In this document: positions 6,574 through 13,446 of the stretch, piece by piece | Layout: each line of letters begins with the position of its first letter | Position numbering within the stretch: position 1 is the stretch's first letter | NCBI GenBank assembly: GCA_947623845.1 | Contig: CANQHM010000019.1 | Span: forward strand, 1-20,907 | Length of the DNA stretch: 20,907 nucleotides | Source: an uncultured Bacilli bacterium | Lineage (GTDB): Bacteria > Bacillota_I > Bacilli_A > RF39 > UBA660 | Direction: 5' to 3' | Notes under the pieces: generated by a model | Databases searched by the model: none | Told to the model about the DNA's origin: nothing | The model's input: the letters and a program-made list of their open reading frames with translations, nothing else | Position numbers and translations under genes: made by a program

Positions 6574-6605
6574 ATAGATTATTATATCATACTATTAAAT
6601 TATAC
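6574..6605 (-). promoter_or_regulatory. Promoter of the 89-aa gene
   Basis: Minus-strand TATAAT (plus 6581-6586) is preceded by TGA, an extended -10. It lies between the stop codon of the ORF6N gene (6595-6597) and the AGGAGG site of the 89-aa gene. The -35 region would overlap the end of the ORF6N gene and has no clear consensus. Confidence 0.5.
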
Positions 6606-7494
6606 TGTTTATCTTATTTTGTAAAGCATTACATATATCTTTATCATTTATTAAATTAATCGAAAAAGTTTTATAACCAATACGATTAATGCTCGCTCCA
6701 CAGTGATAAATTATATTGTTATCAAGAATAAAGTATCTATCGTGAAAAGTATTATCATAATAAACATCTAAGTTATGATATTGTTTATTATACTTTTCAA
6801 TATCCTGTTTAGTTAATAAATTATTAGGTTTGGTAATTAGAGATACTTTAATATTTAATCTTTTAATAATATCTAATAAGGTATTATCAGCATAAGCATC
6901 AATTATAATTAAAGAAGATTTAGCACTTTTAAAGATATCTAAAATTTTAGAATAAGCATCAAATATTTGGCCATTAAAATAAATTTCATTAACTTTTTGT
7001 TTTTCATTTAATTTAGCAAAAGACTCTTGTAATAATTTTATGTCTTTGTTATTTTTACTTATATTATCGCTATTATTTAAAATTTGCTTTTTCATATACT
7101 TAAGTTCTATTAAATCGTTAGATAAATATTTACGCATTTTAACAAAAGCACGCATTATATTAACGCTCATTTCTATAGCAATGTCAGTTTTTAAAACTGA
7201 AGCTAACATTGCTGTACCTTGTTCAGTGAATACATATGGGTTATATCTTCGACCACCTTTTTTGTTTGAGGTCCCAATTTGGGACCTCAAAGAATCATAT
7301 TCTTCGGCTGTTAATTGAAAGCAAAAATCTTCCGGAAATCTTTCTTTATTTCTAGTCACTGCTTGATTAATAGTTTTTGTTCCGTTTTTACAGTCATATA
7401 ATTTGCCTAAATCTGAATCTAGCATCACTTGTTTACCGCGAACCTCATAAATTAAATTTTCAATTTTAATATTCGTTTTTACTAATTCATTCAT
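6595..7494 (-). CDS. ORF6N-domain protein with C-terminal PLD-like domain
   Basis: Residues about 11-95 match the ORF6N domain seen in phage antirepressor-type and poxvirus-related DNA-binding proteins: VRGKQVMLDSDLGKLYDC, NKERFPEDFCFQLT, LRSQIGTSN (69-77) and PYVFTEQGTAML. A charged helical stretch (about 125-170) follows. The C-terminal ~110 residues look like a phospholipase D-like fold with HDRYFILD (251-258) and YHCGAS; only one degenerate HKD-like motif is present and its Lys is replaced by Arg, so nuclease activity is doubtful. The start is the ATG at 7494, 8 bases after AGGAGGA; the TTG at 7500 is too close to the ribosome site. The LRSQIGTS codons form a 27-bp perfect palindrome, and relatives of that palindrome lie upstream. 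Probable role is DNA binding, possibly autoregulatory or phage-derived; the biological role is unknown. Confidence 0.85.
   Translation of the reverse strand: MNELVKTNIKIENLIYEVRGKQVMLDSDLGKLYDCKNGTKTINQAVTRNKERFPEDFCFQLTAEEYDSLRSQIGTSNKKGGRRYNPYVFTEQGTAMLASVLKTDIAIEMSVNIMRAFVKMRKYLSNDLIELKYMKKQILNNSDNISKNNKDIKLLQESFAKLNEKQKVNEIYFNGQIFDAYSKILDIFKSAKSSLIIIDAYADNTLLDIIKRLNIKVSLITKPNNLLTKQDIEKYNKQYHNLDVYYDNTFHDRYFILDNNIIYHCGASINRIGYKTFSINLINDKDICNALQNKINSII
7265..7291 (-). repeat. Perfect 27-bp palindrome inside the ORF6N coding sequence
   Basis: TTTGAGGTCCC (7265-7275) is mirrored by GGGACCTCAAA (7281-7291), and the centre AATTT adds two more pairs, giving 13-bp arms around one central base. 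On the coding strand it spells L-R-S-Q-I-G-T-S-N, the conserved ORF6N motif. The 36 nt from 7266 to 7301 match upstream 7595-7630 at 33 positions. Confidence 0.9.
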
Positions 7495-7527
7495 AATCAA
7501 AATCCTCCTATTTTCTATTTATAAAAT

Positions 7528-7728
7528 AATTATATATTACAAAATTCTGTAAAAACATAAGGTAAGTTTCAAACTATACTATAAGTATTCAAACTTGAGG
7601 TTCCATTTTGGAACCTCAAAGAATCATATTATAAAGAATTATATATTTAAAAATTCTGTAAAAATATAAAACAAATTTCGAACGCCATGATAAGTATTCA
7701 ACCTTGAAGTTTCAAAATGAAACTTCAA
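7528..7728 (-). repeat. Two degenerate 92-bp direct repeats upstream of the ORF6N gene
   Basis: Positions 7528-7619 and 7637-7728 align without gaps at 71 of 92 positions by hand count. On the minus strand each unit carries, in order, a palindrome of 25-27 bp, a TTGAATACTTAT block, a TTTTTACAGAATTTT block and an ATATATAATT -10-like element. The unit next to the gene supplies its proximal -10 (7529-7534). The two palindromes differ in sequence but each keeps its own dyad symmetry. Confidence 0.85.
7595..7619 (-). repeat. Palindrome homologous to the ORF6N LRSQ codons (proximal copy)
   Basis: TTGAGGTTCCA (7595-7605) pairs with TGGAACCTCAA (7609-7619) around TTT. On the minus strand it reads as L-R-F-Q-N-G-T-S, preceded by codons for Y-D-S as in the gene. 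Relative to the in-gene palindrome two of its three substitutions are a matched pair that preserves base pairing. Confidence 0.85.
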
Positions 7729-7729
7729 G
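7703..7729 (-). repeat. Palindrome related to the ORF6N LRSQ codons (distal copy)
   Basis: CTTGAAGTTTCA (7703-7714) pairs with TGAAACTTCAAG (7718-7729) around AAA, 12-bp arms. Read on the minus strand in the equivalent frame it gives L-K-F-H-F-E-T-S. It begins directly after the short ATG-AAT-AC remnant. Confidence 0.85.
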
Positions 7730-7765
7730 TATTCATTATCAAAACCTCCCTATATTTTCTACTAG

Positions 7766-7801
7766 TAAAATAATTATATATTACAAATGTACGTTCGTCA
7801 A
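7766..7801 (-). promoter_or_regulatory. Strong sigma-A type promoter upstream of the repeat block
   Basis: Minus-strand TTGACG (plus 7796-7801) and TATAAT (plus 7773-7778) are separated by exactly 17 bases, with a start expected near 7766. It would make a leader of about 270 bases carrying two hairpins before the ORF6N gene. The -10 elements are repeated at 7638-7643 and 7529-7534, where the matching -35 positions are poor. Confidence 0.65.
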
Positions 7802-12641: not shown

Positions 12642-12677
12642 CAATAGCATTATACAACATCTTTTTTATTTTGTAAA
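12642..12677 (-). promoter_or_regulatory. Promoter of the DUF4143 ATPase gene
   Basis: Minus-strand TTTACA (plus 12672-12677) and TATAAT (plus 12649-12654) are separated by exactly 17 bases. Transcription should start near 12642, right at the GAGGTGA ribosome site. The palindrome at 12679-12700 abuts the -35 element. Confidence 0.8.
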
Positions 12678-12678
12678 G

Positions 12679-12700
12679 TTAGTACGATTAAACGTACTAA
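12679..12700. promoter_or_regulatory. Operator-like palindrome TTAGTACG-N6-CGTACTAA
   Basis: TTAGTACG (12679-12686) is mirrored by CGTACTAA (12693-12700). The same arms recur in the terminator hairpin 38 bases away. It touches the -35 element of the ATPase promoter, a position where a bound protein would act. There is no T run to make it a terminator of its own, beyond three T on the minus strand. Confidence 0.5.
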
Positions 12701-12711
12701 TTCTTAATTTT

Positions 12712-12745
12712 AAAAAGTTAGTACGGTGTATCGTACTAACTTTTT
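12712..12745 (-). terminator. Terminator of the mnmE-mnmG-rsmG operon
   Basis: AAAAAGTTAGTACG (12712-12725) pairs with CGTACTAACTTTTT (12732-12745) around a 6-base loop: a 14-bp stem ending in A/T runs, so it can terminate in both directions. It starts immediately at the rsmG stop codon (12745-12747). Its core TTAGTACG/CGTACTAA is the same as in the palindrome at 12679-12700. Confidence 0.85.
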
Positions 12746-13446
12746 TATCTATTTTCTTTTAATATTTGTTTATAAGGGCGAGGATATTTAGGATTGGTTG
12801 ATTTTAATTTGGTTATTTTAATTATGGTTCTTTTAGAATTTTCAAAAGGAAGAGTAAAATCTTTTTGGGTAGTTATCTTACTATCTAAAGTAGTTAAGAT
12901 TTTAGAACTTGCTTCTAGTTCTTTAGATATTTCACCTTTTAAAGCGATAAAATAACCATTTACTTTAACATAAGGAAGAGCTAACTCACTAAGAATTGGT
13001 AAAGATGCAACAGCTCTTGAGGTTACCAAATCAAAATATTCTCGTTTATCTTTAATGTATTCTTCAGCTCTGGCATGAACTAAAGTTACTTTAAGATCTA
13101 ATTTTTCACATAATTCTTCTAAAAATTTTATCTTTTTATTATTACTATCTAGTAAAGTTACTTCTAGATGAGGGTAGAAGATTTTTAGGACAAGACCAGG
13201 GAACCCAGCACCAGTACCAATATCTAATAAAGTATTTATAGTATTTAAATCTATTACTTTGATTATAGTTAATGAATCATAGAAGTGTTTTAAATAAATA
13301 TCTTTAGTTTCTGTAATAGCTGTTAAATTAGTGTGTTTATTATAATCTTGTAGGAAAGTACAATAGGTTTTTAGTTTACCTAAAGCATTAGGTGTTGGAG
13401 TTATATTTAAATCAGTTAAATTATTAATAAATTCTTGTTCAGTCAT
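12745..13446 (-). CDS. rsmG: 16S rRNA (guanine-N7)-methyltransferase RsmG (GidB)
   Basis: RsmG methylates N7 of G527 (E. coli numbering) in the 530 loop of 16S rRNA using SAM. The family signatures are visible: NKHTNLTAITE (36-46), KHFYDSLT (53-60), the SAM-binding LLDIGTGAGFPGLVLKI (73-89), then TSRAVASLPILSELALPYVK and the GYFIALKG strand. The 233-aa length is typical. Its ATG lies inside the end of mnmG (8-base overlap), so translation is coupled. The mnmE-mnmG-rsmG order is the usual origin-proximal operon. Confidence 0.96.
   Translation of the reverse strand: MTEQEFINNLTDLNITPTPNALGKLKTYCTFLQDYNKHTNLTAITETKDIYLKHFYDSLTIIKVIDLNTINTLLDIGTGAGFPGLVLKIFYPHLEVTLLDSNNKKIKFLEELCEKLDLKVTLVHARAEEYIKDKREYFDLVTSRAVASLPILSELALPYVKVNGYFIALKGEISKELEASSKILTTLDSKITTQKDFTLPFENSKRTIIKITKLKSTNPKYPRPYKQILKENR

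Follow-up and report, generated by a model that had tools for sequence, protein, structure and literature searches.

The ORF6N family appears to carry the site of its own protein within the coding sequence, with three protein residues linked to the site letters by a code

Described systems and the ORF6N gene of the window

Operators within coding sequences are known from lac O2 in lacZ and gal OI in galE, and autoregulated transcription factors with diverging operators, e.g., phage repressors, have these operators in promoters. Short palindromes near or in genes that show paired changes are found in REP/RAYT systems and as Rickettsia palindromic elements. The active site of PLD-type nucleases has the form HxK(x)4D...GSxN. 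For ORF6N proteins, we know of no structure with DNA, and a profile search for a relative in the PDB gave none that was convincing (best E 0.11).

The case described here resembles lac O2 and gal OI in that a predicted repressor site lies within coding sequence. Unlike these, it is situated in the gene for the regulator's own DNA-binding domain, is found throughout the family in several phyla and varies in step with the predicted recognition helix. With the phage repressors, ORF6N proteins share a dyad site, helix residues that would set the specificity and presumably the dimeric state, whereas the conserved ORF6N site is located inside the reading frame and not in a promoter. The likeness to REP/RAYT systems and Rickettsia palindromic elements consists in short palindromes near or in genes and in their paired changes, but unlike in REP/RAYT systems no Y1 transposase was matched in the protein analyzed here, and the copies are located at ORF6N genes instead of being dispersed.

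The window, i.e., the whole analyzed stretch of 20,907 nucleotides from an uncultured Bacilli bacterium, is a low-GC segment (28.5% G + C) containing genes that, judged from their translations, we take to be yidC, mnmE, mnmG, rsmG and parB. The ORF6N gene (6595..7494, minus strand) adjoins parB and encodes 299 amino acids from an ATG start codon, with an alternative listed ORF (6595-7500) starting from TTG. No match of the window region to plasmid DNA was found. Between rsmG and an AAA/DUF4143 gene (12662-12747), there are two 39-bp tandem repeats with dyads of the GTACGA..CGTAC type, the second of which resembles a stem-loop with a T run.

By Pfam, PADLOC and Foldseek, the protein consists of an N-terminal ORF6N domain and a PLD/TrmB-like C-terminal part. 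It belongs to the ORF6N family (Pfam PF10543, E 2.1e-33, 114.9 bits vs. a curated cut-off of 27.8) and shares this domain with ORF6N / KilA-N phage proteins, which are listed as antirepressor (PMC6591296). Furthermore, it matches the PADLOC candidate defence model PDC-S05 (308 bits, E 1.2e-92), for which the PADLOC listing gives neither a mechanism nor a DNA target and which is reported to be abundant in rumen genomes (PMC13356809). The C-terminal part has Foldseek matches to TrmB/TrmBL2 and PLD folds, and the PLD nucleases PLD3, Zucchini and SauUSI also match the protein model. The top hits, archaeal TrmB and TrmBL2, likewise combine a DNA-binding N-terminal part with a PLD-like C-terminal fold, a resemblance only, with about 14% identity and a TM-score of about 0.3 over the whole model. 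The PLD nuclease motif is changed to HDRYFILD ... GASIN, the lysine being replaced by arginine (25 aligned proteins, small variants aside). In the literature searched, with subscription journals and preprints outside its scope, no DNA site or code for ORF6N proteins was found.

Palindromes within and around ORF6N genes

An earlier note on this DNA had described three near-perfect palindromes with the paired changes CCC/GGG, TCC/GGA and TTC/GAA, reading LRSQIGTS, LRFQNGTS and LKFHFETS in the frame of the gene; positions, dyads, changes and readings could all be confirmed. The three inner bases of an arm are called its word in the following, and protein residues 41, 44 and 48 the key. The in-gene palindrome TTGAGGTCCCAATTTGGGACCTCAA (7266-7290; 12/12 pairs, within a longer dyad at 7262-7294) has the word CCC, codes for residues 69-76 and is the predicted operator of its own gene, which has the key T41 Q44 R48 (TQR). 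Upstream palindrome 1, TTGAGGTTCCATTTTGGAACCTCAA (7595-7619; 11/12 pairs, the centre pair being broken), has the word TCC and is the predicted site of a DKR-type ORF6N protein, and upstream palindrome 2, CTTGAAGTTTCAAAATGAAACTTCAAG (7703-7729; 12/13 pairs), has the word TTC, predicted for a (T/S)LR-type protein. Neither upstream copy is located within a listed ORF of at least 60 amino acids. First-order Markov resampling of the window (30 resamplings) resulted in 0.1 such dyads per resampling (arms of at least 11, loop of at most 5, at least 8 G + C).

The upstream region contains a 109-bp tandem duplication, the units of which (7524..7632 and 7633..7741) are 73% alike and hold palindrome 1 and palindrome 2, respectively. 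Past the palindrome, palindrome 1 and the gene share 11 nt (AATATGATTCT) on one side only, the other flank being that of the array unit. Since one flank matches the gene, a copying event may explain the origin of palindrome 1. Its peptide is also that of a relative (P0002), whose helix DINKAVKR gives the key DKR, and past recombination with a TCC-type ORF6N gene would be the simplest account of its history. A promoter-like sequence, TTGACG-17-TATAAT (7773..7801, minus strand), is located upstream of both palindromes and has little weight, as five promoter-like sites were counted in the region compared to a shuffle mean of 4.9. Reading palindrome 2 as a terminator was rejected; the one terminator-like call (shuffle mean 0.2) lies on the plus strand, and parB and the ORF6N gene are on the minus strand.

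A regular expression search of 80 loci and the window yielded 74 ORF6N loop motifs, with two motif artefacts. In the remaining loop motifs, the arms of which are diverse, 10 to 12 of the 12 pairs are formed. With an HMM search, the palindrome was found in 129 of 152 distinct ORF6N N domains, at the same domain position in several phyla. The 23 domains without a match comprise 14 partial and nine full-length ones, and two of the latter (L127, L129) have a variant palindrome missed by the motif, so that about seven are truly without. In the majority of genes the palindrome is read in a frame giving peptides like LRSQxGTS, and in a minority (frame 2) in one giving peptides like FLVENFDQK; its location in the domain is the same in both. 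The three E. coli prophage ORF6N loci that were examined have no palindrome; a phage-type ORF6N query matched in 127 of 5426 E. coli genomes.

For 94 of the 114 distinct in-gene 25-mers, the pairing was compared with that expected for a fixed peptide. The observed value is 10.64 of 11 pairs vs. 4.98 for synonymous codons drawn from ORF6N usage, and 93 of the 94 sites exceed 99% of this null. Because the pairing is far above the synonymous codon expectation, the constraint acts on the DNA and not on the protein alone, and the second reading frame likewise indicates that the dyad is kept at the DNA level within the gene. When arms were shuffled between sites, the pairing dropped to 7.6 of 11. 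Among 6441 gene pairs, only three showed high upstream and low near-downstream identity at the palindrome and none the reverse, so there is no general swapping of gene halves.

Within the palindromes, there is little variation at RGT/ACY and the inner AA/TT, in part owing to the filter, and the outer four and inner three bases vary. Both arms have equal words in 145 of 154 in-gene and 78 of 86 nearby non-coding sites. A scan confined to sites with RRT/AYY at the motif positions and A/T at the inner ones, and to words containing at least one G or C, revealed eight words common to both sets, namely TTC, CCC, TCC, CAC, CGC, CGA, CAA and GCC; a ninth, GCA, was symmetric once in a later set (L498). 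ORF6N genes of the NRN type repeatedly have the unequal site GCA/GAA (L486, L489, L510, L513) and once GTA/GAA (L496), which could be a coding compromise or another half-site preference.

The earlier note had named, as a finding that would speak against its reading, the absence of upstream copies from all relatives and of further instances near other ORF6N genes. This was not the case, as 86 distinct non-coding copies were found in the analyzed loci at most 1.5 kb from ORF6N sequences, 66 of them upstream and 20 downstream. Some stand alone and others form clusters, in many cases with distances of 50-65 bp (e.g., L037, L050, L074, L187), and a cluster in L037 (9080-9972) comprises up to nine palindromes with varied arms. 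From a total of 110 non-coding sites in the loci, five are farther away than 1.5 kb and 19 lie in loci in which no ORF6N domain was found, several of these at contig ends. In L086, L087 and L089, palindrome arrays are located at contig ends as if the assembly broke there, so that draft genomes probably show too few arrays. In some loci (L130 1310-3043; L039, L047, L011, L038), two to three ORF6N genes follow one another in tandem and differ in their palindromes. On plasmid pTS1 of Treponema saccharophilum (L125 532-4694), the ORF6N gene is situated amid genes for a DNA methyltransferase, a wHTH protein and a restriction subunit S, which looks like the inside of a type I R-M operon.

As the loci had been chosen for ORF6N or the motif, a scan of whole genomes gives the fairer figure. 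In 98 genomes, 52 core sites GGTCNMAANTTKNGACC were detected, of which 29 are inside ORF6N hits, 18 at most 1.5 kb away and five elsewhere. Core sites are present in 22 of 41 genomes with ORF6N vs. 1 of 57 without, and a control motif read backwards had one forward match in the same genomes. The copies are thus not dispersed, as the earlier note had it, nor do they spread through unrelated genes or intergenic regions like RPE or REP elements; 47 of 52 are located at ORF6N genes. Among the five outliers, three share a conserved sequence of another kind, AAACGGTCACAATTTGTGACCAGTT or its complement, which in these three genomes lies away from ORF6N hits (L185 1214, L186 3009, L194 3026) and is perhaps the operator of another regulator. 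The sequence GGTTACAAATTGTAACC was seen in many genomes with and without ORF6N (among others L108, L109, L111, L114, L123); its word TAC is absent from the ORF6N genes seen, and it is probably the site of another regulator.

Agreement between palindrome words and helix residues

The words were compared with the encoded proteins for 140 in-gene sites, which remained from 154 once partial domains, stops and duplicates had been removed; for mutual information and the tree, six sites with unequal words were also excluded (134 sites). The mutual information between word and alignment columns is highest at residues 74, 41, 44 and 71. The word itself encodes residues 71 and 74 and does not encode 41 and 44, the latter two ranking highest outside the palindrome-coded segment. 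Residue 48 follows the last letter of the word, with R48 in 114/114 C-final and N48 in 18/20 A-final words. The assignments are CCC with TQR (24/25), TTC with (T/S)LR (28/28), TCC with DKR (18/20), CGC with RER (16/16), CGA with REN (11/14), CAC with (V/E/A/Q/K)QR (19/19), CAA with EQN (6/6) and GCC with (Y/N/Q)RR (6/6). In an in-sample lookup, 133 of 140 words follow the key, keys occurring a single time counting as correct. Symmetric words with a mismatched key exist, for example EQR with TCC (L088) and ILR with CCC (L019).

The spacing of residues 41, 44 and 48 fits one helix face. In the structure model of the window protein, these residues lie on a helix at 39-48, and the codons of residues 41-48 (T I N Q A V T R; 7351..7374, minus strand) are predicted, from this helix and the covariation with the word, to encode the recognition helix. 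The palindrome-coded segment falls into a low-confidence loop of the model (73-81, mean pLDDT 74, 25 sequences). Judged by covariation, the specificity of the in-gene site matches the recognition residues encoded by the same gene.

A tree was built without the code columns and the palindrome-coded columns. On this tree, the word changes at least 39 times, residue 44 at least 30 times and residue 48 at least eight times. Many branches are weakly supported and starred branches alone give only one to two independent pairs per contrast, for which reason path-disjoint pairs on the whole best tree were used. Of 28 pairs with different words, 27 also have different keys, and in 23 both words agree with the assignments above; among 50 pairs with the same word, the key differs in eight. 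Residue 44 differs in 24/28 of the former vs. 2/50 of the latter.

The rule was then fixed and applied to 46 further domains, new by a 65-residue identity filter, which may have let through some close relatives of the first set. Nine are without a palindrome, five of these full-length. Of 35 scorable cases, 27 were exact. In each of the eight misses the two arms are unequal; the prediction holds for one arm in seven of them and for neither arm in L496. The symmetric scorable cases were as predicted in 27/27, the third letter was right in 29/29 symmetric words, and no symmetric word contradicts the code. Two keys were outside the rule (RQR, MQR), both with CAC. The frame-2 genes obey the code in 7/7 cases with a readable key, three sharing one sequence type and an eighth being a fragment without key, and 5/5 more do so among the further domains. 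Nine distant genes gave five exact matches, three with one arm and one outside the rule (H48, Treponema). Four more Bacteroidota genes fit by eye (L127, L196 and L197 with AQR and CAC, L198 with EQN and CAA). Among the matches listed, with duplicates included, gammaproteobacterial phage relatives have N48 with an A-final word in 6/8 and do not keep the rest of the key.

The flanks of 23 genes contain 68 non-coding sites, and own words, i.e., those given by the gene's own key, were counted for 22 genes with 67 sites. The own word occurs in 19 of 67 sites where 8.6 are expected (p 0.0014, 5000 shuffles), 13 of 22 genes having at least one such site, and the other 48 words are not own. Where the in-gene site is lost or misfits the key (L037 twice, L083, L088, L187, L071), the own word is present in the flank in five of six cases, compared to 6 of 13 genes with a fitting in-gene site (small numbers). 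In genome G001, where four ORF6N genes were found (keys giving CAC and CCC), two of seven array words have a cognate gene; in G002, likewise with four (CAC, TTC and CGC), two of five do. In the window, the in-gene site is own by the code and both upstream sites are foreign, so the paired changes noted earlier are specificity differences.

These data also bear on other explanations of the symmetry. Covariation within the protein, by which loop residues coded by the palindrome have to fit helix residues 41, 44 and 48 and the DNA symmetry is a side effect, is hardly probable at all. It is true that 71 and 74 are as informative on the word as 41 and 44, which they are by construction, but the frame-2 genes keep the match between word and helix with quite different peptides in both gene sets, synonymous positions are fixed too, and the non-coding flanks are enriched for the own word. 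A hairpin selected in the ORF6N mRNA, e.g., for translational control or processing, would be compatible with the in-gene copy, and probably the upstream copies of the window, being transcribed, and with the fact that RNA stems likewise keep pairing through paired changes. It is nevertheless very improbable, as the broken pairs on the sense strand of the 114 distinct in-gene sites (15 G-T, 23 A-C, 9 other) have no G-T bias, which argues against an mRNA stem, as array copies lie upstream of the likely promoter in L037 and downstream of the gene in L187, and as a code with one helix face better suits double-stranded DNA.

Quasi-palindrome correction, template switching or gene conversion could copy one arm onto the other and produce symmetry without function, and near-perfect palindromes in coding and non-coding copies, the flank shared by palindrome 1 and the gene, and half-changed sites such as GCA/GAA are in line with this. 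Such a process predicts free drift of the words, whereas symmetric sites, scanned for words containing G or C, show only the same eight words in both settings, and it predicts neither the agreement with the helix residues nor the concentration at ORF6N genes. Blind copying of arms is therefore disfavoured, since the inner words are a small vocabulary that tracks residues encoded elsewhere in the gene, and we regard it as highly unlikely to be the cause. The earlier note had left the choice between selection for the palindrome and such copying; the former is strongly supported by the occurrence in most ORF6N N domains, the clustering beside ORF6N genes and the conservation at the DNA level, and the latter is unnecessary for the symmetry, as the words track the helix. 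There is similarly little probability for a self-spreading element of the RPE or REP kind, with ORF6N genes and their surroundings as frequent landing places. The clusters with varied arms and the copies on both sides of genes would suit it, but only five of the 52 core sites lie away from ORF6N, three of the five being a different sequence, genomes without ORF6N have hardly any copies, the palindrome has the same place in the domain across several phyla, and the code between word and helix is left unexplained.

Predicted operators and their meaning for the ORF6N family

Taken together, the palindromes are very probably binding sites of ORF6N proteins, predicted from sequence, with the in-gene copy as the gene's own operator and the upstream copies as sites of other specificities. 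For the window, the CCC palindrome is most likely the predicted operator of its TQR protein. A dimer of the ORF6N protein would read two half-sites RGT-NNN-AA, placing helix 39-48 into the major groove of either half, with residues 41, 44 and 48 reading the inner word. As the dimer would read the inner word in each half, a switch of specificity would be seen as the same change in both arms, and the symmetry would follow from dimer binding, so that template switching would not be needed. The in-gene operator would be written into a stretch coding for a flexible loop, and its position means that it is carried along with the gene. Binding within the own gene may act as a roadblock or repress transcription, and the likeliest use would be negative feedback on the gene's own transcription. 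The upstream TCC and TTC copies would be sites of K44-type and L44-type specificity, respectively. They could be in active use by ORF6N proteins that are paralogous or newly arriving, or could be relics of genes or specificities of this family that the locus had in the past. Several observations count against the operator reading. Most flanking words are not own, both upstream sites of the window are foreign, some ORF6N genes have no palindrome, the misses have unequal arms and some symmetric words have a mismatched key. Moreover, a promoter operator would not account for the array of L187 on the downstream side of its gene, and at least 56 palindromes of viral contigs (at least 11/12 pairs, four words) are outside recognised ORF6N domains.

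Exact scans of viral contigs for four words revealed at least 245 core matches in at least 240 loci, at least nine of them inside ORF6N; 240 of at least 280 loci were analyzed for core matches, and all of the at least 280 were used for the further domains, to which they added two new ones, both as predicted. Such palindromes, in the gene's own frame, were also hit in at least 13 phage genes that match ParB_N or, weakly, DUF3102 (L255, L257, L302, L262, L330, L337, L344, L346, L349, L351, L353, L357, L214); these genes had been chosen by their word and a helix expression. Pfam analysis of seven of these gave two over the cut-off, three below and two without a match. Among the matches listed, GCC goes with a helix arginine in 8/8 and TCC with AKTTAFR or GKTAVWR in 4/4, and the sole CCC gene (L214) also has AKTTAFR. 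Since it shares this helix with TCC genes, no code is claimed, and this second family is a lead only.

A tentative extension, which we consider rather unlikely, is that ORF6N genes, and mobile DNA-binding genes of one further kind or more (here the ParB_N and DUF3102-like phage genes), are self-addressed and that the flanking arrays are panels of sites. With the operator in the coding sequence, control and specificity would move as one unit, and many paralogs could coexist without crosstalk. Through an array with many words, a locus might respond to the set of ORF6N specificities that happens to be in the cell, among them those which phages and plasmids bring in.

In gut bacteria, phages and plasmids, proteins of this widespread family are common; they are listed as candidates for anti-phage defence, and with the code a predicted target can be given for an ORF6N protein from its sequence alone. 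For the evolution of DNA-binding specificity, the family offers a case in which protein and site change within one gene, with about 39 natural switches on the tree of 134 domains. An operator carried in the reading frame suggests a general way in which a mobile regulatory gene may stay controlled wherever it lands.
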